Source: Sphingobium sp. Z007 (GTDB lineage Bacteria; Pseudomonadota; Alphaproteobacteria; Sphingomonadales; Sphingomonadaceae). Taken from it: a stretch of 64,000 nucleotides of DNA. The stretch is from positions 2,480,001 to 2,544,000 of the forward strand of contig NZ_FBXK01000005.1 in assembly GCF_900013425.1 (NCBI RefSeq), in the 5' to 3' direction. How positions within the stretch are numbered: the stretch's first letter is position 1; every line of letters begins with the position of its first letter. This document shows, in pieces, positions 12,618 to 29,794 of the stretch. The notes beneath the pieces were generated by a model. The model had not been told where the DNA came from. It searched no databases and saw only the letters and a program-made list of their open reading frames with translations. Position numbers and translations under genes: made by a program.

Positions 12618-15600
12618 ATGTTCAAAGTCACTGGCTCTGGGCCTATCAAGGTCAAGTTAACTCCCGATTATGCCCTTCCCTCGACTTCCGACGCTAGCGG
12701 ATCGGGGCCGGAATTTACCGGCACTTGGTCGCTGTCGCGCGAAGCGCAGGTCCGCAGCGAAGTCCGGCTGCTCTATCCGATGGACGCACCGACCCCACCC
12801 GATACGGCACCGGGTTCCGACGATTTGGCGGAAAATGGCAGCGCATCCACGATCTTCGCGGTGGCCGCCACCGGCGATGCCCGCATCGATGGCATTTTGC
12901 GCGGAAACGGGTGGTCTGGAAGCATCACCTATGCGGATGTGGACTCGACCGCCGACTATCAGGCGGGTTATTTTTCCGACAGCGACGGTGATGGCACCAG
13001 CGCGCAGAATGAGGGCTTCTCCCAATTCACGCCCCAGCAACTGCTGGCGATGCATAGTGCGCTCAACGCCGCAACCTACACGCAACTGGCCGGTGCCTAT
13101 GGTTTTTCGATCGAAGGTTTTACTAACCTGACGATCGATTATGCCGGCGCAGGCAGCGGCGCGGCAACCATTCGCGGCGCCAATTCCAGCGACGCACCGA
13201 CCGCCTATGCCTATTACCCTTCAAACAGCATCTATGGCGGCGACACCTTCTTCGGCAACTTTTATGACGGCACGTCCAATTCGCTGAAGAACCCGGTGGC
13301 CGGCAATTATGCCTGGCATACGATGTTGCATGAACTTGGTCATTCGCTCGGTCTCAAACATGGGCAGGAAACGGGCGGCGTCAGTAACGTGGCCCTTCCG
13401 ACAGCCTGGGATTCGATCGAATTTTCGGTCATGACTTATCGCAGCTATGTTGGCGCGCCGCTCAGCGGATACAGCTATGAACAGTTTGGCGCCCCGCAAA
13501 CCTATATGATGCTCGACATCGCTGCGCTCCAGACCATGTATGGCGCCGATTATACGGTTCACGCTGAAAATACGACCTATAGCTGGAACCCGACCACCGG
13601 CATCACCTATATCAATGGCGACGTCGCGATCCAGCCGGGCGACAATCGCATCTTTGCGACCATCTGGGACGGTGGGGGCATCGATACCTATGATCTGTCA
13701 GCCTATGGCAATGCGGTCACCATCAATCTGGCGCCTGGCGGCCATTCGCTGTTCAGCGCTACGCAGCAGGCCTATCTGGGCGGCGGCAATTATGCCCGCG
13801 GCAACATCTTCAACGCCCTCACCTTCGGCGGCAGCAACGCCTCGCTGATCGAGAACGCCACTGGCGGATCGGGTAACGATACCATCACCGGCAATGTCTT
13901 GGCCAACGTGCTCAAGGGCGGCAGCGGTCAGGACACCATCTATGGCGGCGACGGCAACGACGTAATCCAAGGCGGTTTTGGGACCGATACCGTCTATGGC
14001 GAAGCAGGCGACGACGTCTTCCAGGTTCTTCAGGGTGAATTTGGCGACAATATCGACGGCGGCAGCGGCACGGATCTATTGGACCTAAGTAATTATACCG
14101 CCACCTATGGCGCTACGGTCGATCTCAGTGCAGGCAGCTGGGACTTCAACCCCAGCTTCGGCGGCCCCTACACCATCTCAGGGGTCGAAAATGTGGATGG
14201 CACTCAACTCGCCGACACCATTACCGGCACCATCGGCAGCAATGTCCTGAATGGCAATGGCGGCAATGACACGCTTTTGGGCGGCAGCAGTAGCGACATC
14301 ATCTATGGTGGCGATGGCAACGACATCATCCAGGGCGGATTTGCGACCGATACCGTCTATGGCGAAGCAGGCGACGATGTCTTCCAGGTTCTTCAAGGTG
14401 AATTTGGCGACAATATCGACGGCGGCAGCGGCACGGATCGATTGGATCTGAGTAATTATACCCTCACCTATGGCGCCACTGTCGATCTCAGCGCGGGCAG
14501 CTGGGACTTTAATCCCAGCTTCGGCGGCCCATACACCATCACCAGTGTCGAAAACGTCGATGGCACCCAGCTCGCAGATACCATAACCGGCGACAGCAAT
14601 GACAATGCGATCAACGGTAACAGCGGTAATGACACGCTGAAGGGCGGGATCGGCCTAGACATCATCCATGGCAATGGTGGCAATGACGTCATTCAGGGCG
14701 GCTTCGGAATCGACACGGTTTACGGCGATGCTGGTGACGACGTCTTCCAGGTGCTGCAGGGCGAATTTGGCGACAATGTCAATGGCGGCAGCGGCAGCGA
14801 CCGGCTGGACCTAAGCAACTATACGACAACCTATGGCGCCACGGTGGATCTGGCCGCAGGAAGCTGGAACTTCAGCCCCAGCTTCGGCGGCCCCTACACC
14901 ATCACCGGCGTCGAAAATGTCGATGGCACTCAGCTTGCCGACACCCTTACCGGTAACGGCGTCAATAATGTGCTGAACGGCAATGATGGCAACGACGTGA
15001 TCAATGGTGAGGCCGGCAACGACACCATCAATGGTGGCAATGGCAATGACCAGATGATCGGCGGTATCGGCAATGATACCTTCAATGGCGGATCCGGCGT
15101 AGATGTCGCCTATGGCGAAGCGGGTGATGATATCTACAAGGTCATTGCCGGCTGGAATGGCGGCTATGGCGAGTTGTTCTCTGGCGGCGCTGGCGTCGAT
15201 ACGATCGACGGCTCCGCACTGATCTCCGACTATGTCGTCAATCTCTCCGATGGCGAATTCGCAATCAGCGGCGGTTCCGGCCTCATCGCGCTCGCCAGCG
15301 TGGAAAATGCGACGACCGGATCGGGCAATGACCAAGTGACTGGTTCGGCGGAGGCCAACCGTCTTATCGGCAATGCCGGCGCCGATACGCTGAACGGCTT
15401 GGACGGCAATGACGTTCTGCAGGGCGGCGCGGGTAACGACCTGCTGAATGGAGGCGCAGGTAATGATACAGTTGATGGCGGTGCGGACATCGATACTGCC
15501 ACCTATGCTGGCATGGCTGCTGGTGTAACCGTCAGCTTGGCGGTTGCAGGCGCGCAGAATACGATCGGGGCCGGCACCGACACGCTGATCGGTATTGAAA

Positions 15601-16835
15601 ATCTGACCGGCACATCCTTTAATGATGTGCTGACTGGCAACAGCGGCGCCAATGTGATTAGCGGTGGAGCCGGCGCCGATATCCTCGACGGCGGCGCAGG
15701 TGCCGACACATTGGAAGGCGGCGCGTCCAACGACATCTATTATGTCGACAATGTCGGTGACAATGTCCTGGAAGGCTCCTCGACTGGCGGCACGAACGAT
15801 CAAATCTTCTCGTCGGTGACCTATTCGCTGCCCGGTCGCCAAATCGAAAAGCTGACCCTGACTGGATCGGCAAACATCAACGCCACCGGCAATAGTCTGG
15901 TTCAGACCCTCATCGGCAATAGCGGCAACAATATCTTGACCGGCCTCGCCGGCAACGATGTGCTTAACGGCGGCCTGGGCAATGACACGCTGGATGGTGG
16001 TGCGGACAGCGATACAGCCACCTATGCTGGCATGGCTGCTGGTGTAACCGTCAGCCTGGCGATCGCAGGCGCGCAGAATACGGTCGGGGCCGGCACCGAC
16101 ACGCTGGTGGGTATAGAAAATCTGACCGGCACATCCTTTAACGACGTGCTGACCGGCAATAGCGGTGCCAATATCATCACCGGTGGGGATGGCAGCGATA
16201 CTCTCAACGGTGGGGCGGGCGCAGACACATTGGATGGTGGAACGTCCAGCGACACCTATTATGTCGACAATGTCGGCGACAATGTTGTGGAAGGCGCTTC
16301 GACAGGCGGCACGAACGACCAGATATTCTCGTCGGTAACCTATTCGCTGGCCGGTCGCCACATCGAGAAACTGACACTAACCGGTTCTGCCAACGTCAAC
16401 GCCACCGGCAATGATCTGGGTCAGACCATTACCGGCAATAGTGGCAATAATATTCTGGACGGCCTTGACGGTAACGATGTGCTCAACGGCGGATTGGGCG
16501 TGGATACGCTGAAAGGCGGGGCCGGTTCCGACATCTTCCTCTTCGCCTCGACGCTGGGCGGCGGCAATGTCGATACGATCACCGACTATGTCGTAGCCAA
16601 TGATACGATCCAACTGGACGACGCAATGTTTGCGGGACTGACGGCAGGCGCGCTGTCGGCTCCCCAGTTCCAGATCGGGTCGGCCGCCAACGATGCCGGC
16701 GATCGGATCATCTACAACAGCGCGACCGGCGCGCTGTTGTTCGATGCCGATGGCACCGGCGCGATCGCGGCGGTTCAGTTCGCAACGATCGGCACGGGAT
16801 TGAGCATGGTCGCGTCCGAATTCATCATCGTGTGA
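12618..16835 (+). CDS. Serralysin-like RTX zinc metalloprotease, type I secreted
   Basis: A 1405-residue protein without a signal peptide. The N-terminal ~350 residues form a metzincin protease: zinc motif HELGHSLGLKH near 238-248 and Met-turn SVMTYR near 271. Then a long series of glycine/aspartate-rich calcium-binding nonapeptides (GGxGxDxxx). The region contains three copies of a 121-residue unit and two copies of a 173-residue unit. The extreme C-terminus, SEFIIV, is an acidic residue followed by hydrophobic residues, as in serralysin secretion signals. AGGAGG precedes the ATG. A strong terminator follows. The convergent TolC/ABC/HlyD operon is its obvious exporter. It is far longer than classical serralysins (about 480 residues) because of the repeats. 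Confidence 0.92.
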   Translation: MFKVTGSGPIKVKLTPDYALPSTSDASGSGPEFTGTWSLSREAQVRSEVRLLYPMDAPTPPDTAPGSDDLAENGSASTIFAVAATGDARIDGILRGNGWSGSITYADVDSTADYQAGYFSDSDGDGTSAQNEGFSQFTPQQLLAMHSALNAATYTQLAGAYGFSIEGFTNLTIDYAGAGSGAATIRGANSSDAPTAYAYYPSNSIYGGDTFFGNFYDGTSNSLKNPVAGNYAWHTMLHELGHSLGLKHGQETGGVSNVALPTAWDSIEFSVMTYRSYVGAPLSGYSYEQFGAPQTYMMLDIAALQTMYGADYTVHAENTTYSWNPTTGITYINGDVAIQPGDNRIFATIWDGGGIDTYDLSAYGNAVTINLAPGGHSLFSATQQAYLGGGNYARGNIFNALTFGGSNASLIENATGGSGNDTITGNVLANVLKGGSGQDTIYGGDGNDVIQGGFGTDTVYGEAGDDVFQVLQGEFGDNIDGGSGTDLLDLSNYTATYGATVDLSAGSWDFNPSFGGPYTISGVENVDGTQLADTITGTIGSNVLNGNGGNDTLLGGSSSDIIYGGDGNDIIQGGFATDTVYGEAGDDVFQVLQGEFGDNIDGGSGTDRLDLSNYTLTYGATVDLSAGSWDFNPSFGGPYTITSVENVDGTQLADTITGDSNDNAINGNSGNDTLKGGIGLDIIHGNGGNDVIQGGFGIDTVYGDAGDDVFQVLQGEFGDNVNGGSGSDRLDLSNYTTTYGATVDLAAGSWNFSPSFGGPYTITGVENVDGTQLADTLTGNGVNNVLNGNDGNDVINGEAGNDTINGGNGNDQMIGGIGNDTFNGGSGVDVAYGEAGDDIYKVIAGWNGGYGELFSGGAGVDTIDGSALISDYVVNLSDGEFAISGGSGLIALASVENATTGSGNDQVTGSAEANRLIGNAGADTLNGLDGNDVLQGGAGNDLLNGGAGNDTVDGGADIDTATYAGMAAGVTVSLAVAGAQNTIGAGTDTLIGIENLTGTSFNDVLTGNSGANVISGGAGADILDGGAGADTLEGGASNDIYYVDNVGDNVLEGSSTGGTNDQIFSSVTYSLPGRQIEKLTLTGSANINATGNSLVQTLIGNSGNNILTGLAGNDVLNGGLGNDTLDGGADSDTATYAGMAAGVTVSLAIAGAQNTVGAGTDTLVGIENLTGTSFNDVLTGNSGANIITGGDGSDTLNGGAGADTLDGGTSSDTYYVDNVGDNVVEGASTGGTNDQIFSSVTYSLAGRHIEKLTLTGSANVNATGNDLGQTITGNSGNNILDGLDGNDVLNGGLGVDTLKGGAGSDIFLFASTLGGGNVDTITDYVVANDTIQLDDAMFAGLTAGALSAPQFQIGSAANDAGDRIIYNSATGALLFDADGTGAIAAVQFATIGTGLSMVASEFIIV
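13983..14956 (+). repeat. Three tandem copies of a 363-bp coding unit in the RTX gene
   Basis: Units start at 13983, 14346 and 14709, an exact 363-nt (121-residue) period. Each contains DTVYGEAGDDVFQVLQGEFG (with small changes), SNYT.TYGATVDL and PSFGGPYTI..VENVDGTQ. The third copy is partial and diverges after about 14956. DNA identity is high, so the duplications are recent or kept alike by recombination. Confidence 0.85.
15501..16501 (+). repeat. Two tandem copies of a 519-bp coding unit in the RTX gene
   Basis: Units start at 15501 and 16020, a 519-nt (173-residue) period. Both encode TYAGMAAGVTVSLA, NLTGTSFNDVLTGNSGAN, YYVDNVGDNV and QIFSSVTYSL. Similarity ends at about 16501, before the C-terminal secretion region. 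This is a second, independent duplication in the same gene. Confidence 0.85.
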
Positions 16836-17241: not shown

Positions 17242-18543
17242 TCATTCGCGGAAGGCGGTTTCCTTGAGACGCGTCAGCGGGGTCAGGATATAGGCCAGTA
17301 TCGTGCGCTTGTCGCCAAGCAGGCTGACATTGGCCCCCATGCCCGGTCCGATCCGAAGCCGACGCCCTTCCCTGTCCAGAATGGCGTCGTTAATTGTACG
17401 CACGCGGACGAGATAATGGCTCTCGCCGGTCCGTTCGTTGATGACAGCATCAGGCGACAGCGCAACGACCTGCCCCTGCATCGACCCGTAGATCGCACTG
17501 TCATAGGCAGAAATTTCAACCTTGGCCCGCTGCCCCAGCCGCACCGAGGCAATATCCTTGGCGGCCACCATCGCCTCGACCAGCAGGTTGTCGCGCGCCG
17601 GCACCATTTCCAGCAGCGGATCGCCCGCCCGCACGCTGCCACCGACCGTCGTCACGAAGACCCGGTTGACGCGTCCATCCAAGGGCGCGCGGACGACGGT
17701 GCGGTCGAGCTTATATTCATAGGCAGGCATGGTCGCGTCGCGCACCGACATTTCGGCGCGCGCAGCAGTGAGTTCATTCCCCGCACGCGCGATCCAGTCG
17801 CGCTGCTGCTGCACGGCGCTGGCCTGCGCCTCCGCCAGGATATAATGGGCGCGGCTGAGCGCGGCGCCGGACCCGACCGCTTCGCTCGCGGCAACGCTAT
17901 AGGCATTTTCCGCCTGTAGCAGCGACCGGCGCGGCTCGATTCCTTCTCGCACAAGCGGGCGCATCAGGTCGAGATCGCTGCGCGCGGTATCGCGGGCGGA
18001 GATACGGGCAGCCTGCGCCGCGGCGGCCTCACCGATCCCACGCTGCGCCTGGGTTATGCGGGCCGACCCGACATTGGACAGGCTCGCCAGTTCGGCCATG
18101 CGCGCGCGATACAGGCTCTGCTCCACTGCGATCTGGCTGGCCATGCTGGGATTACGGGCAGCAGGGAACATAGGCGTTCGCCCTGAAATCTCCGCCTCAA
18201 GCCGCAATATCTTCAGGCTCAGCGCATCGCCGCTGGCCCGGTTGCTCGCCAGTTCTGCACCGGGCTGGATCGGGCTGAGACGGATCAAAGGCGCACCGGC
18301 TTTCACATCCTGACCGGTCCGCACCAGGATCGTATCCACCACACCGCCTTCCAGATTGGAGATCACCTGCAACTGCGAACTGGGGATGACCCGCCCATTG
18401 GCTCGCACGGTCCGGTCGATTTCGGTCAATCCCGCCCATAGCAGGAAGATCAGCAGGAAAGCCGCGATCGCCCACAGGAAGATATTCGCAGGGACGGCGG
18501 GCCGGATATGCCCATAGCCTGGAAGTTGCGCCTCGCCGCTCAT
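17242..18543 (-). CDS. HlyD-family type I secretion membrane fusion protein
   Basis: A 433-residue adaptor. It has a short cytoplasmic N-terminus, one TM helix (about 23-43, IFLWAIAAFLLIFLLWAGL), a lipoyl/barrel half-motif (NGRVIPSSQLQVISNLEGG), a long alpha-helical hairpin (about 100-290) and a second barrel part (DRTVVRAPLDGRVNRVFVTT). It bridges the inner-membrane ABC transporter and the outer-membrane TolC channel. Its ATG overlaps the ABC gene stop by 4 nt. It is the last gene of the operon and points toward the RTX protease, its likely cargo. Confidence 0.94.
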   Translation of the reverse strand: MSGEAQLPGYGHIRPAVPANIFLWAIAAFLLIFLLWAGLTEIDRTVRANGRVIPSSQLQVISNLEGGVVDTILVRTGQDVKAGAPLIRLSPIQPGAELASNRASGDALSLKILRLEAEISGRTPMFPAARNPSMASQIAVEQSLYRARMAELASLSNVGSARITQAQRGIGEAAAAQAARISARDTARSDLDLMRPLVREGIEPRRSLLQAENAYSVAASEAVGSGAALSRAHYILAEAQASAVQQQRDWIARAGNELTAARAEMSVRDATMPAYEYKLDRTVVRAPLDGRVNRVFVTTVGGSVRAGDPLLEMVPARDNLLVEAMVAAKDIASVRLGQRAKVEISAYDSAIYGSMQGQVVALSPDAVINERTGESHYLVRVRTINDAILDREGRRLRIGPGMGANVSLLGDKRTILAYILTPLTRLKETAFRE

Positions 18544-20267
18544 GCCGCTTTGCCCCGCGTCAGCCGTTGCAGGATGACATCGCGCGGTCCGTCTGCGGCG
18601 ATCCGCCCCTGTTCCATCACGACGATCCGATCGACCAACCGGAGCAACGAGGGACGGTGGGTGATCAACACTATGGTGCGCCCTTCCACTTCCGGTTGCA
18701 GGCGGTCGATCAGGTCGGTTTCGGTCTGGGCGTCCATCGCGCTGCTCGGTTCATCGAAGATCAGAATCGGCGGTCGTCCCGCCAGTGCGCGCGCCAGCGA
18801 AATGGACTGCCGCTGCCCGCCCGACAGGCCTTCGCCGCGATCCGTGAGCTTGAGGTCATAGCCGTTGACGATCTTGCCCATGAAATCATGGGTGCCGCTC
18901 AGCGATGCCACACGGATCATCTCGTCATGATCGATATCCGCGCGGTCGAGACAGATATTGTCCCGCACTGATCCGGCGATCAGCACATTATCCTGCATCG
19001 CAGCGCCGATGAACCGGCGCAATCGGCCGGGATCGAACTGACGCACATCGGTGCCGTCGATCATGACCACGCCCTCCTGCGGTTCGTACAGTCCCAGGAT
19101 CAGCCGCGCCAGGGTCGACTTGCCCGAACCTACCCGGCCCAGAAAACCGACGCGCTCGCCAGGCGCGATCGAGAGGCTGATCTGGTCCAGCGCCTTTTCG
19201 GACGCGCGCGGGTAGCGGAAAGCGACGTTTCGCAACTCGATTCCACCGAGCAGGCGCGCGGGTTGCAGCGGCTCACCCGCCGGCCCTTCGCTGGGCGTGT
19301 CCATCAATGTGTTGATTTGGCGACAGGCGATGCGGGTGGCGGACAGGCGCGCCAGCAGGTTGGCGATCTGCGCCAGCGGCGCGATCGCGCGTCCGCACAA
19401 AATCGAGCAGGCCAGCAGCGCACCGGTCGTGATGCTATTGTCGCGGATCAGCCCGACGCCCAGGATGATGATGCCGCAATAGGCGATGATGTTCGCGCTG
19501 TTCGCCACCGTCATCGCGATGGACGCGGTCAGTCGCTGGCTCAGCGAGCTTTGCGCATGGCTTTTGAGCGCCGATCGCCACCGCGCGCTCAGCATCCCGC
19601 CCGCACCGATCGCCTTGACCGTTTCCAGACTCCCGATGGTTTCGACCAGCACCGACTGTTTGCGCAGTCCGTCGCCAAGGCTGGCCGCCGACAGGCGATC
19701 GAGCGCCGGATTGGTGATCAAGCCGGCGACGACCACGACAGGGATCATAGCCAGCGGCGGTAGCACCAATATCCCACCCAACATGGCCATGACGGCCAGC
19801 GTAATGATGATGAACGGCACGTCGATGATCGCCGTCAGCGTTGCGGATGCGAAAAAGTCGCGCATCGTTTCCAATTCGCGCATCAATCCGGTGAGCGTGC
19901 CAGTGGACCCGGCGCGGTGGTCGAGCCGCATGGACAACAGCTTGGCAAACAGCGTGTCGCCCACCTCATAATCGATATTGGCACCGGCGATGTCGACGAA
20001 ATAAACACGCAGCAGCCGCAACACGAAATCGAATAGGACCACGATAGCAAGGCCAATGCTCAGCCCGACCAGGGAGGATGACGCATCGTTGGGGATGACC
20101 CGGTCATAGACGGTCATCGTGAACAGGGACGAGACCATCGCGAACAGATTGATCATCGCCGCAGCCACGCCGACCTTGATGTAGGTGCCACGATTGCGGA
20201 GCATCGGTTCGATCAGCCAGGGGGCAAAGCGTTTCCGGGCGGCGGCGATCAGGGGCTGGTCGGTCAT
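18540..20267 (-). CDS. Type I secretion ABC transporter (permease-ATPase), no N-terminal peptidase-like domain
   Basis: A 575-residue half-transporter: six-helix membrane domain (about 25-310) and a nucleotide-binding domain with Walker A GRVGSGKST near 375, signature LSGGQRQ near 480, Walker B ILIFDEPS near 500 and H-loop LITHR near 535. The C39 peptidase or C39-like domain (~130 residues) found in HlyB or LapB is absent, as in PrtD-type exporters of serralysins. This fits a cargo with a C-terminal uncleaved signal. It overlaps both neighbours by 4 nt in a TolC-ABC-HlyD operon. Confidence 0.95.
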   Translation of the reverse strand: MTDQPLIAAARKRFAPWLIEPMLRNRGTYIKVGVAAAMINLFAMVSSLFTMTVYDRVIPNDASSSLVGLSIGLAIVVLFDFVLRLLRVYFVDIAGANIDYEVGDTLFAKLLSMRLDHRAGSTGTLTGLMRELETMRDFFASATLTAIIDVPFIIITLAVMAMLGGILVLPPLAMIPVVVVAGLITNPALDRLSAASLGDGLRKQSVLVETIGSLETVKAIGAGGMLSARWRSALKSHAQSSLSQRLTASIAMTVANSANIIAYCGIIILGVGLIRDNSITTGALLACSILCGRAIAPLAQIANLLARLSATRIACRQINTLMDTPSEGPAGEPLQPARLLGGIELRNVAFRYPRASEKALDQISLSIAPGERVGFLGRVGSGKSTLARLILGLYEPQEGVVMIDGTDVRQFDPGRLRRFIGAAMQDNVLIAGSVRDNICLDRADIDHDEMIRVASLSGTHDFMGKIVNGYDLKLTDRGEGLSGGQRQSISLARALAGRPPILIFDEPSSAMDAQTETDLIDRLQPEVEGRTIVLITHRPSLLRLVDRIVVMEQGRIAADGPRDVILQRLTRGKAA

Positions 20268-21727
20268 GGCGTTTCCATCCGGTCCGAAGGATTGACGGCG
20301 ATCGAGAGACTGGGCAGCAATCGGCCCGTCCGCCCCAGCAGGGCAAAGCGCGACACATCCCGTTCGGCGAGGGTCTGCACATAGCTTGCAATGGAATAGA
20401 AATAGTTATCCTCGACATAGAGCAGGTCGTACAGCGTGCCCTGCGAGGCTTCGAAGCGCGTCGCGATGACGTCGCGCGTGTTGCGATTGGCGATATAGCT
20501 CGCTTCCGCCGCTGCGAGTTGATCGTCCAGCCCCCTTATGTCGGCGAGCGCCATCTGCGCGTCGCGCATCGCTTCCTGCCGGACGCGGTCGGCATAGGCG
20601 TCCGCCGCATCCGCCCGCGCCGTCGCCTGGTCAGCCTTGGCGTTGAAACCGGCGCCAAGTTGCGCACGAACGATGATGCGGCCGCGCACATCATAGTCGC
20701 CGGGGCTTTCGAACACGCCATAGCGTCCTGCATCCACGCCCGCGGCAATGGTGGGCAATCGATCCGATCGCGCTGCCCGCGCTTCCTGGCGCGCTGCGCG
20801 AGCCTCTGCTTCCGCCTTGCGGACGACGGGCGATCGCAGCACGATCGCATCCAGCACCTCCATATCGACCGCCGCCTCTGGCGGCAGGGTGGCACGGGCC
20901 AGTTCGGGCGGCGGTTCATGGCCGGTCAAGGCGCGATATTGTGCTTCCGCGCCCGCCAGGTCGCGGCGGATGCCGGCAAGGCGCGACCGGACATTGGCGA
21001 TCGAACTGTCGACCCGCGGCAGATCGCCCTGCGCCGAAAAGCCCTGATCGATCCGGCGTTGCAAGCCACCGCGCAGCTGCATCTGGCGCACGATATATTC
21101 CTGCGCCGCCTGCGCCATCAGCCGCTGCGCGAATACCGAATACCAGGCGGTGATGGTGCGTAGCCCCACTTCTTCGCCATAGCCCAATATGCCTTGCCGC
21201 GCCGCGTCCACCCGCGCATTGCCAGCCCCGATCCGGTTCGACGCCGCGCCGAAATCGAGCAACCGCTGCCGCACGGACGCGGTCGCATCGGTCCGTCCTT
21301 CGGGTCGCGACCGTTCGATGATGTTGCCGGGATCGTTGGAAAAATTGCGGGCGACTGACCGGTTGGCGTCGATCGAAAGGTCGATCGAGGGAAAGAGTAG
21401 CGATCGGGCCTGCGTCCGCGCCGCGCGCGCCTCGCGTTCGCTCGCCCGCGCTTCGTCGAGCAGCGGATTGTTGCGGATCGCGGTTTCGATTTCCGATCGG
21501 AACAGCGGATCGGCACCAGCCGGTTTCGCCAGTTCGAGCAGCGGGTCGGACGCTATCGGCGCGCTGAAGGGGCGCGGATTGGGCGCCTGCACCAGCGTGC
21601 GCGGGGCATTGGGAGCGCGCGCTTCCTGGCTGTGGACACACGGCACCATGCCGAGCGCAATAGCGACGCACCCGACAGCGCGGAGGTCGAGCCTCCCTCT
21701 TCCGATTCTGCGATATAACAAAAGCAC
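20264..21727 (-). CDS. TolC-family outer-membrane channel of the type I secretion system
   Basis: About 487 residues with a hydrophobic N-terminal segment (LRAVGCVAIALGMVPCVHSQ) as signal peptide, then two TolC repeats of long helices (EIETAIRNNPLLDEARASE; ASVRQRLLDFGAASNRIG; YIANRNTRDVIATRFEASQG). The start is uncertain: GTG at 21727 is chosen because GGGG lies just before it, while TTG at 21769 would add 14 residues. It is the first gene of the secretion operon. The 213-bp gap upstream, to the glycosyltransferase, probably holds the promoter. Confidence 0.9.
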   Translation of the reverse strand: MLLLYRRIGRGRLDLRAVGCVAIALGMVPCVHSQEARAPNAPRTLVQAPNPRPFSAPIASDPLLELAKPAGADPLFRSEIETAIRNNPLLDEARASEREARAARTQARSLLFPSIDLSIDANRSVARNFSNDPGNIIERSRPEGRTDATASVRQRLLDFGAASNRIGAGNARVDAARQGILGYGEEVGLRTITAWYSVFAQRLMAQAAQEYIVRQMQLRGGLQRRIDQGFSAQGDLPRVDSSIANVRSRLAGIRRDLAGAEAQYRALTGHEPPPELARATLPPEAAVDMEVLDAIVLRSPVVRKAEAEARAARQEARAARSDRLPTIAAGVDAGRYGVFESPGDYDVRGRIIVRAQLGAGFNAKADQATARADAADAYADRVRQEAMRDAQMALADIRGLDDQLAAAEASYIANRNTRDVIATRFEASQGTLYDLLYVEDNYFYSIASYVQTLAERDVSRFALLGRTGRLLPSLSIAVNPSDRMETP

Positions 21728-21982
21728 AGTGCCCCGGCCGCGCGTATAATCCCCTCCACATCCCTGCAATGCTCAACAAAAAGCCGTGCAGCGACCTGGC
21801 GATTCTCAATATGCCCGATCGTGGCTTCTCAGGCAACTTACATAGGCTGTAATGTTCGGCAGAACGGGGGTGCAAGATCATTTCGTGACGACACCATCAT
21901 CGGCAGGCTGAACTGGCCGTCAACTATGGCGACATCTTCGTCCCGACGGCGCGCCTGCATCATGCGCCGCCTCATCGACAAG

Positions 21983-23122
21983 CTATCGTGTGCGGGAGAT
22001 CGGCTGATGCAGGGGAGCGATGGACGCAAGAAGCCCGGCCCATTGGTCCAGCATCGCGTCCAGCCGATAGGCGTCGATCCGGCCGCCCGGCCGGATGGCG
22101 CGCGTCGGATCGATCTGCTGCGCCATCGCCTGCGCCATGGCTGCCGGGTCCGATGGATCGACCAGCAACCCATGACGCCCCTGCTCCAAGAGCGATGCCG
22201 CATTGCCCGCGCTCCGCGAGACGACGACCGGCACGTCCAGCGCCATCGCCTCCAGCAGCACATTGGCCGACCCCTCCCACCAGGACGGCAACACGAACGC
22301 GCCGGCGCGTGCGAGCCAGGGGAAGACATTGTCGACCGTGCCGGGCAGCAGCAGGTCCGCGCCGATGCCGAGCGCATCGGCCTGGTCGCGCAGCGCCTGT
22401 TGCGCGCCGTCGCGGCTTTCTCCCAGGATGATGAGGCGGGCCGTGGTGCCGTCGCGGCGTAGCTGCGCAAAGGCCGCGAGCAAGGTGCCGAAATTCTTCT
22501 GCGGCGCCAGTCGGCCGATCGCGACGATGACCGGGACTCCATCCTCATAGCAGCCATGGGGCGACGGTCCGGCTGCGCGGGTGCGCGCGATAGCGGGATC
22601 GATCGCATTTTCGATGACGTGCGCCCGTCCTTCGGCAAAAGCGCTGACGAAGGCGCCGACCGCCAGCGTTGGCGACACCAGCACCAGCCGGTCGCCGTCC
22701 GCGGCCAACAACCGCATGGCGATAGACCGGACCAGCGAACCGGCTACCCCGCCCGGCGTTCCCGGTGCCGCGCGGCGCAGGTCGTTGCTGATCCGGTAGA
22801 TGCGGCGCAGGCCCGGCACCGCCCGACTGCCCAGCATCGCGGTCAGATGGCCGTGATTGCCGGCCGACAACACTATATCGGGTCGCGCGCCGCGCAGATA
22901 GGCGTTGAGCTGCGGCATCGCCCGCCATTTCTGCAGCATCCGCGATCCGCCCGCCTGCGCCAAGAGCGCATGATGCGGCACGCCAGCCACCCCTTCCCCG
23001 CCGGGCAGCGCCGTCACCAGCATCACGTCATGACCCCGCGAGTGGAAGTCAGCGGCGAGCAGGCGCACATTGCGCACGACGCCGGTGGCTGCGAGCGCAT
23101 GGACGTAGAGGGCGATCTTCAC
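21983..23122 (-). CDS. GT4-type glycosyltransferase
   Basis: A 379-residue GT-B enzyme. The N-terminal half has MKIALYVHALAATGVVRNVR; the C-terminal half has VIVAIGRLAPQKNFGTLLAAF and the donor-binding EX7E motif in PSWWEGSANVLLEAM (near 283-296), typical of retaining family-4 transferases. It uses a nucleotide-sugar in the cytoplasm. Its ATG overlaps the ATP-grasp gene stop by 4 nt. It is the last gene of a four-gene operon; the acceptor is unknown but is probably the product of the two ATP-grasp enzymes or a surface glycan. Confidence 0.9.
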   Translation of the reverse strand: MKIALYVHALAATGVVRNVRLLAADFHSRGHDVMLVTALPGGEGVAGVPHHALLAQAGGSRMLQKWRAMPQLNAYLRGARPDIVLSAGNHGHLTAMLGSRAVPGLRRIYRISNDLRRAAPGTPGGVAGSLVRSIAMRLLAADGDRLVLVSPTLAVGAFVSAFAEGRAHVIENAIDPAIARTRAAGPSPHGCYEDGVPVIVAIGRLAPQKNFGTLLAAFAQLRRDGTTARLIILGESRDGAQQALRDQADALGIGADLLLPGTVDNVFPWLARAGAFVLPSWWEGSANVLLEAMALDVPVVVSRSAGNAASLLEQGRHGLLVDPSDPAAMAQAMAQQIDPTRAIRPGGRIDAYRLDAMLDQWAGLLASIAPLHQPISRTR

Positions 23123-24204
23123 CGCCGGTCCCGTTGCACCGCCTGCGCTGCGCGCCAGTCCGCATCGGTCAATCGATCAAGCGCATGGCGATAGAGCGCG
23201 CCCAGCCGACTGTCCGCCACGCCCCGGCCGTTCACCAGTTGCACGATGTCGGTGCCGGGGTTCCAATTGCCCTCGATCAGCACCGGCCCCTGCGTCGTCA
23301 GACCGATGTCCCAGCCGATCACCGTGAAGCCGTGCCGGAACCGATCGTGCGCCCGTAGCGCGAGTGCGCAAGCGGCGTCATGGTCGGGCAATATCATGCC
23401 CTTGATCGGCGCACCCGTCAGAGGGTGACGGCTGTGGCGGGACGGGGCGCGCTTGCCGCCGCTGCGCCAGGCGGGGCCGCAATGTCCCTGTCCATCGACC
23501 GCCAGCACCAGATTCCCCGCGTTGAAATTATCGACCGGCCGCGGTCCGCCCGCCGAGAGGCGCAACGCCGTGTCGCAGATTTCCGGCGCGCCGCCCTCGT
23601 TCAGGCAGGTGACGATGCGCAATGTCGGCAAAGCGCCGGGCGACAGGTCGGCCAGCGCCTTGTGGGTCGGCAGGCGTTGCTGAATCACGCCGCCCCTGCG
23701 CCAGAGCGCGCGCAAAGATACAGCGAGTTGGACAGTTGTACGCGTATACTCGCCGTCGCGCCAATCGTCGCCGTGGCGGACGAAACGCGCGACGCCCTGC
23801 CCCTTGGAGCGATAGCTGGGCTTGGCGATGATGTCGTCCTGCCGGGCCAGCCAGGCATCGAGGTCCATCGTATCGGGATTGCAGGCATCGGGAAGCGGCA
23901 GTCCTACAGCTATTTTTGCAAATAACTGTTTATTTTTCAATATGTTATTTGACAGTGGAAAAGCGCCGGGGTTGAGCAGGCGGTGCAGGCCCTTGCGATC
24001 CTTCATGCTGAGGCCCTGCGTCCGCACGGCCTCGCTTAGGTACAGCCGCTCGCCGGGCGACCAGCCGCCACAGCCGATCGCCGACAGGCCATGCGCCGCT
24101 AGCCGTCGCGCGGGCGACCAGTGGCGCGCCAGCCCGTCATGATAGGCAGCGGTCAGGCTGTTGCCGCCGTCCCGCCGGACCGGCAGCGCGCGCAGCGTGA
24201 GCAA
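23119..24204 (-). CDS. ATP-grasp enzyme of the sugar-transfer-associated type
   Basis: A 361-residue protein. The C-terminal two thirds looks like the sugar-transfer-associated ATP-grasp domain: DDIIAKPSYRSKGQGVARFV (ATP-binding Lys), LPTLRIVTCLN, GPRPVDNFNAGN and VLIEGNWNPGTDIVQ (metal-binding Glu/Asn). ATP-grasp enzymes join a carboxylate to an amine or thiol through an acyl phosphate. Domain name is from memory of the family. The region near 23900-23960 is AT-richer than its surroundings but lies in frame. It overlaps the glycosyltransferase by 4 nt and follows the nucleotidyltransferase after 3 nt. The substrate is unknown. Confidence 0.85.
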   Translation of the reverse strand: MLTLRALPVRRDGGNSLTAAYHDGLARHWSPARRLAAHGLSAIGCGGWSPGERLYLSEAVRTQGLSMKDRKGLHRLLNPGAFPLSNNILKNKQLFAKIAVGLPLPDACNPDTMDLDAWLARQDDIIAKPSYRSKGQGVARFVRHGDDWRDGEYTRTTVQLAVSLRALWRRGGVIQQRLPTHKALADLSPGALPTLRIVTCLNEGGAPEICDTALRLSAGGPRPVDNFNAGNLVLAVDGQGHCGPAWRSGGKRAPSRHSRHPLTGAPIKGMILPDHDAACALALRAHDRFRHGFTVIGWDIGLTTQGPVLIEGNWNPGTDIVQLVNGRGVADSRLGALYRHALDRLTDADWRAAQAVQRDRR

Positions 24205-24207
24205 GCC

Positions 24208-25020
24208 TTACTCCGCCGCCACGGCCAGCGTGCTGCGCATGGCCAGCATCTCTTCCGCCACGCCGTGCGAGCGGGCATTGTCCACATCGACCGCCACCGC
24301 GCCGTCGGTCAGGATCACCGGGCTGATCGTCAGGCGGAAACGGCGCGAAAAGCGGGCGAAGGCCTGGTCCAGCGTGCCGATGCCGAAGCGGAAGCGAATG
24401 AGGTTGAGCAGGCCGAAAGCGCCGACGATACGCGCGGGATGCTTGACGAACTGGCCACCCGACCGGAACGTCTCGGCAACTTTCAGCGCCGTCCGATCGC
24501 GCAGCCAATAGGTGTTGCAGTTGGAATAGCTATCGTCGGCGAAATTGTAGAATTTGCGCTGCCCTTGGCGGTGGGCGGCCAGCACCGACGCACGGCGGGT
24601 GAAGGCGACGGCGGCGTCCGCCCCCTGCGCCATGCATCCGTCCAGCATCTCGTCCACAGCCTCCGGCGTCAGCATCACATTGTCGGCGGTCGTGATGAGC
24701 AGCGGGAAGGCCGCGCCGTCCGCGCCCGCCAGCACGCTGTCCACCAGATTGGGCTGCGCAGCTACACCGATCACCCGGCCGCTGTGCAGCAACCCGCGCA
24801 GCGGCGGTAGGCCGGCCAGCAGCGCCGGGTCTTCGATCACGACGCGCACGGTGCCGATCCGGCGATTGGCGACCAGAGCCTCGATCACATGCAGCAGCAT
24901 CGGCTGACCCGCCACCGGGACCAGGCATTTATGCGTGACACCGGCCGCCAGCGCCAGCGGATCGGTCGCGCCATCGCGCCGGCCGGCGAGCAGGATCGCG
25001 GTGGTGCAGCCGGTCCTCAT
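24208..25020 (-). CDS. MobA-like nucleotidyltransferase
   Basis: A 270-residue protein of the NTP-transferase fold. The start has TTAILLAGRRDG, a changed form of the usual LAGGxGxR, followed by THKCLVPVAGQPML (Lys that binds the NTP) and ITTADNVMLTPEAV (metal-binding Asp). It would activate a sugar phosphate or similar as an NDP/CMP derivative. The C-terminal half (FSRRFRLTISPVILTDGAVAVDVDN) is family-specific. Its ATG overlaps the stop of the Ddl-like ATP-grasp gene by 4 nt. It presumably makes the activated donor used by the glycosyltransferase in the same operon. Confidence 0.85.
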   Translation of the reverse strand: MRTGCTTAILLAGRRDGATDPLALAAGVTHKCLVPVAGQPMLLHVIEALVANRRIGTVRVVIEDPALLAGLPPLRGLLHSGRVIGVAAQPNLVDSVLAGADGAAFPLLITTADNVMLTPEAVDEMLDGCMAQGADAAVAFTRRASVLAAHRQGQRKFYNFADDSYSNCNTYWLRDRTALKVAETFRSGGQFVKHPARIVGAFGLLNLIRFRFGIGTLDQAFARFSRRFRLTISPVILTDGAVAVDVDNARSHGVAEEMLAMRSTLAVAAE

Positions 25021-26048
25021 GCCGCCACCCGCATGATGGCGTCGCTCAGCAGGCCCTGCCGCGCCAGGCTATGGCCGACGATCGTTTCGACCAGCGCCGC
25101 GTGATCGAGACCGATCGAGGCGGCGGAGCGGGCGATCGTCTTTTTCGACCAGAGATTGCAGGACAGGTTGACTTCCATGAACAGCAGCTGCCCGCTGGCC
25201 GGATCGTAGCGAAATTCGAAGCGGCCATAATCGAACGGCCAGAGTTCGGGCAACAGCGCGGCGGTCATCGCCTCCAGCCGGGCGCGCAGATCGGCATCCT
25301 CGACTAGGATCAGCGGGTCATCGCCTGCATCGACCAAACCGCGCTTCTCTTCATAACTGCGCTCGCGATGCGGATCGGCGGGGACATACATCATGGGCGG
25401 CAAGATCCAGGGCTGGCCGCCGCTGCCGCCGATCACCGGCACGGCGACGTCCAGCAGTGGCGCCCATTGTTCGACCAGCACGTCATGGCCGAGCGCGAAC
25501 AGGCTGTCGGCATGGTCCCGCGCTTGGCTCCAGTCATCCACCATCTTGACGCCCCAGGAGGCCGAAGAGGCGTTGGGCTTCACCACCAGCCGGTCGGCGT
25601 GGAAGGTCGGGGCGTCGAACAGGCCGCCGCGCCGGAACAGTTGCGCCTGCATCGTCGGCACGCCGCGCGCGCGCGCGATCAGCTTGCTGAGATATTTGTC
25701 GTCGGACAGGCCGCGCACGATCGGGCTGGCGCCCAGATGGGGGACGGCGTGACGGCTGAGCAGCAGCGGCGCGAGCATCTCGCTATTCAAGAAACCGCCG
25801 CGATTGAGCAGGGTGACGACGAAATCGGCGTCGGGCCGATCGAACAGCGCGTCATAGCTGTCGGCGACATCGACATGCAGGCCGATCGCCTCCAGCGTCG
25901 TGCGCATTTCATGATGATAGACGGCATGATTGCCGTCCTGCGCATCGGGCCGGCCGCCGGCGCGCGCATGTTTGGCGAGGAAGAGGATATGCAACCGCGC
26001 CTTGTCGGCAGCCGGGATGCGGATCTGGCGGGGATGTATTGCTGTCAT
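25017..26048 (-). CDS. D-Ala-D-Ala ligase-like ATP-grasp enzyme
   Basis: A 343-residue protein. It has an N-terminal pre-ATP-grasp region (RLHILFLAKHARAGG), a Ddl-like segment VPHLGASPIVRGLSDDKYLS, ATP-binding DRLVVKPNASSASWGVKMVD, and the metal site FRYDPASGQLLFMEVNLSCN. These resemble D-alanine-D-alanine ligases, but the flanking sequence is unlike ordinary Ddl, and cell-wall genes are not beside it. First gene of the four-gene operon, so it probably sets the pathway in motion by making an amide or peptide bond. The substrate is unknown. Confidence 0.85.
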   Translation of the reverse strand: MTAIHPRQIRIPAADKARLHILFLAKHARAGGRPDAQDGNHAVYHHEMRTTLEAIGLHVDVADSYDALFDRPDADFVVTLLNRGGFLNSEMLAPLLLSRHAVPHLGASPIVRGLSDDKYLSKLIARARGVPTMQAQLFRRGGLFDAPTFHADRLVVKPNASSASWGVKMVDDWSQARDHADSLFALGHDVLVEQWAPLLDVAVPVIGGSGGQPWILPPMMYVPADPHRERSYEEKRGLVDAGDDPLILVEDADLRARLEAMTAALLPELWPFDYGRFEFRYDPASGQLLFMEVNLSCNLWSKKTIARSAASIGLDHAALVETIVGHSLARQGLLSDAIMRVAA

Positions 26049-26148: not shown

Positions 26149-27489
26149 TTACCGCAGGTCGATCGGCGCGGAATCCGCATCGGGCAGCGTCCCGCCCATG
26201 ATCGTCGCCAGCGTCGGCGCGATCGCGCGCATATCGATCCGGCCCAGATCCTTGCCCGCGGCGATCCCCTTGCCCATCACCATGAAGGTCGCGTCCAGAT
26301 GGGCGGGACCGGGCAGATAGCCGTGCATCCCCTTGACCGGCGTGGGCGCGATCAAGGGCGCGCTCGCCCCACGGAAGATGTCGGTGACGAAGCCGGGCTT
26401 CAGATTGACATAATAAGACGCCTGCGGATTGCCGCCGATTTTGGCGATCGCCGCCTTGTCCAGCACTGCCGCGATGCCGTTGGCCGGGTTGGCGGCGAGT
26501 CGGTCGAGCAGCGTCTTCGTCCGATCGGCGATGGCGGCGTCATCCAGGCGCGCCAGCATGATCGCGGCCGACCCGCCCGCTATCCAGGGCATTGCCTGCC
26601 AGGACGCGACCTTGCCGTCCTTGTCCAGCGTGATGAGCCCTTCGTCGATGAAGGCGCGGAAAAGGTTGAGGCCGGTCTGGGTCGCTTCGAACCCATGGTC
26701 GCTGACCAGCGCGATCGCCGCGTCGGGATGCGCCTTGCGCTCCGCGGCGATCAGATCGCCGACGATGGCGTCGATCTTTTCCAGCACGGCTTTGGCCTGT
26801 GGCGTATCTGGCCCCATCGCATGTTGTTCATGGTCGAGCGCGGTCAGATAGACGGTCAGGAATTGCGGCTTGTGCGCGGCGATCAGCGCGGCAGCGAAAC
26901 GGCCCCTATTCTGGTCGCCGGGCAGGCTCTCGTCGATGCCCATGGCGTAGGGCTGGCCGACTTTCGCTTCCAGTTCCGCTTTCAGCCCCGACGTCGCCAG
27001 CGCATCGAGCAATTTCGCATCGTCGGCATGGCCGGTGCGCCAGATTTGCGAGAGGTTCCAGGTCACGCCCCTGGCCGCCACGCTGACCGGCCAATGGACG
27101 TTGCCAGTGGACAGGCCCGCCTTCGTGGCCGCCTCCCACAGGGTCGGCACCTTGATATCCTGCGCATACCAGTACCAGCCGCCCTGGTTGATGCCGGTCG
27201 GATCGAAACTGTTATTGGCGACGATGCCATGTGTCGCGGGCGACACCCCGGTCATCAGCGTCGTGTGGCTGGGATAGGTCAATGTGGGCGCGACCCCGGT
27301 GACGCCCGACGCATGGGCGCCATCGGTCAGAAATCGGCGCAGATTGGGTAGGGAAAGGCCGCGCTTTTGCGCCTCCAGCACGTCGCCGGGCCGCAGCCCG
27401 TCAATCGAGATGAGGAGCAGCGGCTCCGCCAGCGCCGCGCTCGGTGTGAACGCGGTAAGAGCGGAGAGGAGAAGCGCGACCTTTTTCAC
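26149..27489 (-). CDS. ENPP-type nucleotide pyrophosphatase/phosphodiesterase, periplasmic
   Basis: A 446-residue alkaline-phosphatase-superfamily enzyme with a signal peptide (MKKVALLLSALTAFTPSAALA). Zinc ligand D30 in ISIDGLRPGD, nucleophile T71 in APTLTYPSHTTLMTG, DHEQHAMGP, and VSDHGFEAT, and a C-terminal His in VKGMHGYLP. The family splits phosphodiester or pyrophosphate bonds of nucleotides or phospholipid-like esters. It lies 4 nt after a TonB receptor gene, so the enzyme and receptor probably handle the same phosphorus-containing nutrient. Confidence 0.9.
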   Translation of the reverse strand: MKKVALLLSALTAFTPSAALAEPLLLISIDGLRPGDVLEAQKRGLSLPNLRRFLTDGAHASGVTGVAPTLTYPSHTTLMTGVSPATHGIVANNSFDPTGINQGGWYWYAQDIKVPTLWEAATKAGLSTGNVHWPVSVAARGVTWNLSQIWRTGHADDAKLLDALATSGLKAELEAKVGQPYAMGIDESLPGDQNRGRFAAALIAAHKPQFLTVYLTALDHEQHAMGPDTPQAKAVLEKIDAIVGDLIAAERKAHPDAAIALVSDHGFEATQTGLNLFRAFIDEGLITLDKDGKVASWQAMPWIAGGSAAIMLARLDDAAIADRTKTLLDRLAANPANGIAAVLDKAAIAKIGGNPQASYYVNLKPGFVTDIFRGASAPLIAPTPVKGMHGYLPGPAHLDATFMVMGKGIAAGKDLGRIDMRAIAPTLATIMGGTLPDADSAPIDLR

Positions 27490-27493
27490 TATT

Positions 27494-29794
27494 TTAGAAC
27501 CCGGCCTTCAACGTCGCGAAGAATTGCTGCGGCGCGCCGACCAGCAGGGTCTGCGCGTCGCCGCTGTTGCCGAAACCGCCCGACCCGATCGTGCCGACAT
27601 ATTTCTTGTCGAACAGGTTGGTGACGTTCATCTGGATTTCGACCTTGTCGGTGAAGCGATAGCCCAGCGACGCATCCACGATCACGCGCTCGGGCACAGA
27701 GGCGTCGTTGGTGTAGCTGTAGAAGCGACGCGACATATAGTTGACGCCGACGCGGAAGAAGCGCTGGCCATCGTCATAGTTGAATTCGCCGCGCGCCATA
27801 TGCTTGGGGCTGTCGACCACGGTCTTGTCCTCGATCGCGGCGACCACCACGCCATTGCCGTTCACGACATCGTCGCGATAGGTAGCGTCGGTGTAGCTGT
27901 AGCTGGCATAGAGGCCAAAGCCGCCGCCCAGCCGCAGGTCGCCCGCCGCCTCGACGCCGACCGCGCGGACGCCACCGACATTCTGGAGCGCCGACGGATT
28001 GCCTTGGATCGCCGAGCCGACCTGCACGGCCAGCAGACGGTTCTTGAAGTTGACCAGATAGGCGCCCAGCGTGCCGTTGAAGACCGGCGTGTTATAGCGC
28101 AGGCCGAGTTCGAAGGTGTCCGACGTTTCGGGCTTCAGATCATCCTTGATCGCGTCGAAACCGGCCTGGTTGGTGGAAAAGGGACCAGTGGTCGTGGCGC
28201 TGGCGAAGGCGCGGGTGACCTGGGTGAAGCCGCCGAAGATTTCCGCTTCGGGCGTCAATTCGACCGCGAAGCCCGCATGCGGCTGGAACCAGTCTTCCGC
28301 CTTGATCTTGCCTTCGGGGAAGGTGGACGACACGACCGCTTCGGCCTTGTTCGTGACCTTGAAGCCCTTCCACCCCAGATTGATCGTCACCATGCCGAGA
28401 TCGATCTTGTCCTGCACATGATATTGGAAGGTGTCGGTGGTGAAGTCGAATTCCCACTGAGTGAAGAAGGGGTTTTTGGGATAGTCGCGGAACGACAGGC
28501 CCGGTTCGGTCCGGCTGGCGAAGGCGTAGAAGCGGCGGGCCTGATGGAACTTGTTATTCTCATACCAGGCGCCGACGCTCAGATTCTGGATGCCCAGCGT
28601 ATAGTCGAGGCTGCCGAACACGCCGATCCGGTCCATGTCATATTCGGTGGTGCGCACCGACATGGGCACGCCGTTCGGGCTGGGGGTATAGGGGGTGCCC
28701 CACAGACCCATGCCGCTGTTATTGTGGTAATAGCCCTTGATCTTGAAGGTCGCGGCGTCGCCCAGCGGCGTGGTCAGCCCCACCGCGCCCAGCCAGTCCT
28801 TGCGCAGGCCGGCCGCGTCATAATAGGCGTCGTCGGCGCTGGTGACATTGCCGGGATAGACCTGGCCACCGGCGACCGGCGCACCGCTATAGTCGAAACG
28901 ACCATCGGGGAAGGGCGAGCCGCCGCTATTGCTAACGCGGTCCACGTCATTGAGGCGGTCGGCATAGTCGATCGCACGGGTATAATCGGGATAAGTGTTG
29001 TCCCAGTCCCAGCCGAGGCGACGGATCATGCCCATCGACATGTCCTGATAATCCTGTTCGCGGCGGTCGGAATAGCTCAGCCAGCCGTCGATCTTCGCGT
29101 CGCCGATGGGGATGATGACCTTGGCATTGCCCATATGCTGGTCCTGAACGCCCTCGCCCTTATATTTGTCGGTCGAGCCATAGCCATAGGACACGTAACC
29201 GCGGATACCGTCCGCGCTCCCTAAGTTGATGCGACCAAAGGCGCGCCAGGTGTCGTTGCTGCCATAGGTCAGGTTGCCCTGCGCGCCCAGTTCGCCGGTC
29301 GGGTCCATCGAGAAGGTTTCGACCGTGCCGCCGAGGTTGCCGGTGGCCTGCGTGCCGAGCGAACCGGCGCCCTGGCTGACGCGCACGCTGCCGATATTTT
29401 CGCTGCTGATTGCGCGGGTGATGTGCAGGCCGTTATGGTTGCCATAGCTCATGTCGCCCAGCGGGATACCGTCGAAGGTGAAGCCGAGCTGGTTCTGATT
29501 GAAGCTGCGGATGGTGATCCGCTGCGACCATTCATAATTGCCGAACGGGTCGGCCGACTGGAAATTGACGCTGGGCAGCTTCTCGATGGCTTTGAGCGGA
29601 TTGGTGCCCGGCGTCAGCACGACGATGTCGCGCGCCTTGATTTCCTGCACCTGGCGGGTTTCGCCCCGGCCGAACACGATGATATCAGCGCCATCGACAG
29701 CGGCGGCATCGGCGGCGGGCGCAACATCCTGGGCATAGGCGGATTGGGCGATGATGGCGGTCGACGCCATCAGCAGAGCGGTGGTGATACGCAT
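27494..29794 (-). CDS. TonB-dependent outer-membrane receptor
   Basis: A 766-residue protein with a signal peptide (residues 1-21, ending AYAQ), a plug domain (TNPLKAIEKLPSVNFQSADP, ITIRSFNQNQLGFTFDGIPL) and a 22-strand barrel that ends in Phe (FFATLKAGF). TonB receptors take up scarce nutrients across the outer membrane. Substrate not readable from sequence. Directly followed by the ENPP phosphodiesterase, in one operon. A large hairpin lies in the 122-bp gap on its 5' side. Confidence 0.93.
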   Translation of the reverse strand: MRITTALLMASTAIIAQSAYAQDVAPAADAAAVDGADIIVFGRGETRQVQEIKARDIVVLTPGTNPLKAIEKLPSVNFQSADPFGNYEWSQRITIRSFNQNQLGFTFDGIPLGDMSYGNHNGLHITRAISSENIGSVRVSQGAGSLGTQATGNLGGTVETFSMDPTGELGAQGNLTYGSNDTWRAFGRINLGSADGIRGYVSYGYGSTDKYKGEGVQDQHMGNAKVIIPIGDAKIDGWLSYSDRREQDYQDMSMGMIRRLGWDWDNTYPDYTRAIDYADRLNDVDRVSNSGGSPFPDGRFDYSGAPVAGGQVYPGNVTSADDAYYDAAGLRKDWLGAVGLTTPLGDAATFKIKGYYHNNSGMGLWGTPYTPSPNGVPMSVRTTEYDMDRIGVFGSLDYTLGIQNLSVGAWYENNKFHQARRFYAFASRTEPGLSFRDYPKNPFFTQWEFDFTTDTFQYHVQDKIDLGMVTINLGWKGFKVTNKAEAVVSSTFPEGKIKAEDWFQPHAGFAVELTPEAEIFGGFTQVTRAFASATTTGPFSTNQAGFDAIKDDLKPETSDTFELGLRYNTPVFNGTLGAYLVNFKNRLLAVQVGSAIQGNPSALQNVGGVRAVGVEAAGDLRLGGGFGLYASYSYTDATYRDDVVNGNGVVVAAIEDKTVVDSPKHMARGEFNYDDGQRFFRVGVNYMSRRFYSYTNDASVPERVIVDASLGYRFTDKVEIQMNVTNLFDKKYVGTIGSGGFGNSGDAQTLLVGAPQQFFATLKAGF

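Follow-up and report, generated by a model that had tools for sequence, protein, structure and literature searches.

A conserved Sphingobium operon with an unusual pair of ATP-grasp ligases: a possible flippase-dependent pathway of the cell envelope

Two described pathways are among the systems closest to the genes considered here. In Caulobacter, the nucleotidyltransferase CpgD makes cytidine diphosphate (CDP)-glycerate for the envelope lipid CPG2 (ceramide diphosphoglycerate), according to one report (PMC12275187), and a second report adds another nucleotidyltransferase, CC_1153, and possibly a flippase (PMC11324152). The pseudomurein gene sets of methanogens include an ATP-grasp enzyme, a MobA-like nucleoside triphosphate (NTP) transferase and a flippase that an earlier study had identified (PMC11915815). 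We analyzed a window of DNA, 64,000 nucleotides in full length, from Sphingobium sp. Z007, and in it an operon of four genes, here called A to D. CPG2 is similar in its use of a nucleotidyltransferase to activate a small acid destined for an envelope lipid, and a flippase may be encoded nearby (PMC12275187, PMC11324152). In contrast, the CPG2 genes listed in the passages compared here include no ATP-grasp ligase, and neither a ceramide kinase nor a CDP-alcohol transferase was seen beside the A-B operon, although no genome-wide search was made for them. Compared by gene content, pseudomurein shares the combination of ATP-grasp enzyme, MobA-like NTP transferase and flippase, whereas the Mur ligases and the MraY-like enzyme named for pseudomurein (PMC11915815) do not recur near A-B. 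By analogy, we regard both systems as precedents for the logic of a pathway and not for membership in it. No published description of the A-D gene set was found in the open-licence literature (subscription papers lay outside the search), in agreement with an earlier note on this stretch of DNA, which had named no known pathway with exactly this set. We consider the chances roughly even that A-D encode an envelope pathway that depends on nucleotide activation and on a flippase and that is unusual in its two ATP-grasp ligases.

All four genes lie on the minus strand. Gene A (25017..26048) encodes a Ddl-like ATP-grasp ligase of 343 amino acids (Pfam Dala_Dala_lig_C, 33.5 bits against a cut-off of 24) and gene B (24208..25020) a MobA-superfamily nucleotidyltransferase of 270 amino acids (NTP_transf_3, 39.1 bits, cut-off 27). 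They are followed by gene C (23119..24204, TTG start), for a sugar-transfer-associated ATP-grasp protein of 361 amino acids (ATPgrasp_ST, PF14397, 125.1 bits, cut-off 31.4), and gene D (21983..23122, GTG start), for a GT4 glycosyltransferase of 379 amino acids (Glyco_trans_1_4, PF13692, 110.9 bits, cut-off 27). The positions and families that the earlier note had given for the four genes were all borne out by the sequence and by Pfam scores above cut-off. It had also described junctions of 3-4 nucleotides as ATGA overlaps. This was correct for A and B, which share the four nucleotides ATGA (25017..25020, minus strand), but C and D overlap by GTGA (23119..23122, minus strand), and B and C do not overlap at all, being separated by a gap of three nucleotides. 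The ratio of nonsynonymous to synonymous substitution rates (dN/dS) was 0.07-0.39 in all 32 comparisons of the four genes with eight relatives, with A the lowest and D the highest in most; all four genes are under purifying selection. Within the operon, promoter-like sites (2 against 0.5 expected) and terminator-like sites (3 against 2.3 expected) were not clearly above a shuffled background.

We then compared the neighborhood of A in public loci, taken as the best 80 of 200 confirmed matches to the A-family profile in named genomes. Because only the best 80 were retained, this set leans towards close relatives, and some of the loci (e.g., L080 and L036) come from genomes that also belong to the set of 199 family genomes described below. 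The genes of the relatives were called by a simple caller, which made some starts too short. In 64 of the 80 loci, B is the next gene downstream of A and has the same orientation; 35 of these junctions are exact four-nucleotide overlaps, 28 have a start within 30 nucleotides and one runs off its contig. The remaining 16 loci include L101 (B upstream), L112 (contig end) and several of Erythrobacter type. Within 4 kilobases (kb) of A, C was found in 42 loci and D in 25. The full order A-B-C-D occurs in 22 loci, namely 21 Sphingobium-type contigs and Erythrobacter litoralis SNB-035 (L100), in which A, B, C, D and a flippase gene are contiguous. Within Sphingobium, the cassette is found in several unrelated surroundings. 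Named A loci beyond the family include some from Methylopila, Hansschlegelia, Chelatococcus, Aureimonas, Kordiimonas and Eilatimonas, but A is rare there, with two other genomes passing an expectation value (E) of 1e-40 in a class-wide draw of 289. Given that the same genes and the same order recur elsewhere, and given the dN/dS values, A-D are more than a chance assembly, and the proposal of the earlier note that they form one unit is supported by homologues co-located in other genomes. A-D belong to a widely conserved, unnamed pathway.

The same association was observed in the inheritance of the genes across 199 family genomes. Presence sets were compiled by hand from match listings, with cut-offs of E <= 1e-30 for A and E <= 1e-45 for B, the latter, like that for the flippase, being set after the lists had been viewed. 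A occurs in 71 and B in 77 of the genomes: 70 have both, one has A only, seven have B only and 121 have neither. With the B cut-off near 1e-35, the corresponding numbers are 70, 1, 11 and 117. B-like matches of any strength extend to 157 genomes, because a B paralogue is widespread; the one in the window genome is 36% identical to B. As a partial remedy for phylogeny, which Fisher tests ignore, we also counted one genome per genus (n = 94) and obtained 33 with A and B, one with A only, five with B only and 55 with neither. C (E <= 1e-20) was found in 17 genomes, 16 of which have A, and in 14 it lies within 5 kb of A. A mobile or defence system was considered and rejected, as there was no PADLOC match for A-D (E 0.01) and no plasmid match for A (E 1e-20).

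Gene A has the Ddl fold and keeps the ATP-grasp residues. Its scores against the curated Ddl models are below cut-off (52.7 bits against 245.65 for TIGR01205; 53.7 bits against 243 for NF002378). The profile alignment of A to Ddl begins at A residue 49, so that the position of Glu15, which in Ddl binds the amino group of the first D-alanine, falls outside it. At the positions aligned to the Ddl residues Ser, Tyr and Ser, which we take to be Ser150 and Tyr216 of the substrate triad and Ser281 in Escherichia coli DdlB numbering, A carries Ala163 (39 of 39 sequences), Arg236 (39 of 39) and Lys303 (37 of 39). The counterparts of Arg255 and of the metal ligands Glu270 and Asn272 are retained as Arg276, Glu292 and Asn294, each in all 39 sequences. 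Since different, conserved residues occupy the three Ddl substrate positions within the alignment, A is probably not a D-alanine-D-alanine ligase, and the curated cut-offs together with these residues led us to reject it as a true Ddl. Ddl look-alikes of this kind are annotated as D-alanine-D-alanine ligase or phosphoribosylglycinamide synthetase. The window genome has a separate housekeeping ddl gene beside fts genes (L035:407-1357), which is the second match to A in that genome.

For B, the fold is that of the MobA superfamily, and residues R15, K31 and D113 are invariant in 40 sequences. We equated them, without an alignment, with R16, K26 and D112 of CpgD/IMPCT as given in PMC12275187. The domain, together with this presumed catalytic Arg and Lys and metal-binding Asp, places B in the superfamily. 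B is 25% identical to TTHA0179 (PDB 2dpw), which is itself uncharacterised and for which no paper was found in the open-licence literature. No CpgD or LicC entry occurs among the PDB sequence matches and the top 50 structural matches of B, a listing that does not exclude homology. Gene C, whose likeness to ATPgrasp_ST is clear from its score, differs from other members in a five-sequence family alignment: the window C aligns from profile position 112 and is without a stretch found in the other four. Against the PDB it gave marginal matches only (best E 0.0086). An AT-rich patch (23905-23960, minus strand) lies within gene C in an otherwise GC-rich operon and contains a promoter-like match (23940-23912); it codes for LKNKQLFA, and a similar stretch is present in C of L079, L080 and L100.

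Relatives of the operon contain two further parts that are not beside it in the window. One is a Wzx/MurJ-like flippase (Pfam Polysacc_synt). High-scoring forms of it (at least 440 bits, a cut-off chosen after viewing the list) were found in 46 of the 199 family genomes, and 44 of these have B. In 27 of the 44, the flippase lies within 5 kb of B, often less than 60 base pairs (bp) behind it (e.g., L140-L143). The order A-B-C-flippase is seen in L079 and L080, the junctions in the latter being -4, 3 and 3 nucleotides. Species that carry the operon in contiguous form include Croceicoccus estronivorus and Sphingomonas oleivorans. Because B and the flippase are neighbors in these 27 genomes, and because the flippase gene comes last in the operons of L079, L080 and L100, a dedicated export step is suggested. 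Genomes G033 and G062 (see also L055) have the flippase directly behind B but lack a match to A at E 1e-30; B and the flippase may thus also act without A. The second part is a likely pyridoxal phosphate (PLP) enzyme of about 490 amino acids, divergently oriented from A. It was found in 31 of the 199 genomes, all of which have A no more than 3 kb away, and in 11 of the 80 public loci within 4 kb of A; it is absent from the window genome. The assignment as a likely PLP enzyme was made by motif reading and from a cysteine-desulfurase-type name on two of 120 listed relatives; this protein gave no PDB sequence match at E <= 1 and no Pfam or NCBIfam match at 0.01. In two loci (L127:8644-12337 and L133:7696-12331), the likely PLP enzyme is flanked by two A-type genes, as if two different ligations were needed.

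Based on these gene families and their linkage, we propose that A-D may be the cytoplasmic part of a cell-envelope pathway, in which the reactions assigned to A, B and C, the use of a lipid carrier, the sequence of steps and the location in the envelope are all putative. B would couple a small phosphorylated compound with a nucleotide, and the activated unit would probably be of the CDP or uridine diphosphate type. A and C would each form an amide-type bond, on the unit of B or on its acceptor; the substrate of A would most likely be anionic (phosphate- or carboxylate-bearing) and not D-alanine. D would add a sugar, a transferase encoded outside the operon would load the lipid carrier, and a Wzx/MurJ-type flippase, encoded at the end of the operon in some relatives and directly behind B in others, would carry the unit across the inner membrane. 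Where the likely PLP enzyme stands beside A, it may supply or alter the amine or amino acid. We give about even odds to this scheme, in which a nucleotide-activated, amide-bearing unit is attached to a lipid, receives a sugar and is flipped to the envelope. The gene families suggest amide ligation, activation and glycosyl transfer, as the earlier note had proposed; of the products that it had left open, a free metabolite seems less likely than a membrane-linked envelope product, given that relatives add a flippase and a likely PLP enzyme.

Several observations weigh against this scheme. Its substrate and product are putative, and the thresholds for B and the flippase were picked with the lists in view. 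With a stricter B cut-off (E <= 1e-60), 61 of the 199 genomes have both A and B, 10 have A only, five have B only and 123 have neither. Among the clustered neighborhoods that were inspected, none of the recurring genes encodes a phosphotransferase for loading a lipid carrier. The flippase lies within 6 kb of A in only seven of the 80 public loci, and the wider flippase family (E <= 1e-40) is present in 121 of the 199 genomes, so that the family as such is unspecific. The best flippase of the window genome (409 bits) belongs to another cluster, L145, and this genome has none of the high-scoring, A-linked kind. The cluster concerned (L145:5207-11207) holds the flippase, a LicC-type NTP transferase, a HIT protein, a CDP-alcohol phosphatidyltransferase and a protein of 357-380 amino acids. 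A set of the same type in another genome of the same genus (L146:6316-12140) also holds the B paralogue, and its 357-380 amino acid protein scores just below the Glyphos_transf cut-off. These clusters are reminiscent of the CPG2 genes of Caulobacter.

The rarity of the flippase near A, where most loci have A, B and C without it, would also fit a reading in which A-D decorate an existing envelope molecule, such as a glycosphingolipid or a polysaccharide, with an amino-acid or phosphoryl group, the flippase serving the parent molecule. In line with this possibility, 55 of the 80 public loci have no D near A. However, the frequent neighborhood of B and the flippase and the operons that the flippase terminates speak for a step of its own, and we consider decoration unlikely. 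A more specific form of the envelope scheme, which we regard as rather unlikely, is a small pathway of Gram-negative bacteria resembling that of lipid II: B would make a nucleotide-activated starter, A and C would use ATP-grasp chemistry to add amino-acid-like groups in place of the Mur ligases, D would add a sugar like MurG, and the MurJ/Wzx flippase would export a lipid-linked, glycopeptide-like unit. If this were true, the Sphingomonadales would possess, in addition to peptidoglycan, another polymer or lipid of the envelope that bears peptides. It is also conceivable, but improbable in our view, that the operon makes the headgroup of a phospholipid or phosphosphingolipid in the manner of CPG2, with B activating an acid headgroup and A amidating its carboxyl. 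The B paralogue in L146, which shares its cluster with the genes listed above, including the sub-cut-off Glyphos_transf protein, points in this direction, as do the formation of CDP-glycerate by CpgD and the need for CC_1153 in CPG2 synthesis (PMC12275187, PMC11324152). Nevertheless, the matches of B listed above contain neither CpgD nor LicC, and no CDP-alcohol transferase occurs in the A-B neighborhoods inspected.

Amide ligases and glycosyltransferases are common in small-metabolite clusters, and such pairs would fit a soluble glycosylated amide or nucleotide-peptide metabolite, secreted perhaps by the type I secretion system next to the operon. The genes for TolC (20264-21769), ABC (18540-20267) and HlyD (17242-18543), all on the minus strand like A-D, come next after D, at a distance of about 0.2-0.3 kb that varies with the TolC start chosen. 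However, type I secretion genes occur within 10 kb of A in only two of the 80 public loci, and at differing positions. We therefore rejected a conserved link; the type I operon is probably a chance neighbor, which supports the caution of the earlier note that the adjacency might be accidental. Moreover, an RTX protein of 1336 amino acids with 17 stretches of calcium-binding repeats (12825-16835, plus strand) is encoded beside the type I operon on the opposite strand. It is likely the cargo of that operon, and a more natural partner for it than A-D, and as such would account for the type I operon without A-D. Together with the flippase linkage of B, this makes a secreted soluble metabolite very doubtful.

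Upstream of the operon, we found two possible companions on the minus strand, an exported type I phosphodiesterase (26149..27489; PF01663, 160.6 bits), 100 bp upstream of A, and, upstream of it, a TonB-dependent receptor (27494..29794; PF00593, 128.9 bits). The pair is also beside A in L043 and L151, which belong to other genera, giving three genera overall. Across the 199 genomes, the phosphodiesterase (E <= 1e-90) occurs in 17, five of which have A, and it adjoins A in three of the five. We rejected the two genes as core parts, since they are not co-inherited with A.

Co-inheritance and gene order would join four to six gene families (A, B, the flippase, C, D and the likely PLP enzyme) in one pathway. 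Annotations of Ddl look-alikes would be recast as a distinct enzyme, represented by gene A, and the uncharacterised nucleotidyltransferase fold of PDB 2dpw would gain a biological setting. Sphingomonads replace lipopolysaccharide with glycosphingolipids, and much of their surface chemistry is still to be assigned; A-D add a candidate pathway to it.

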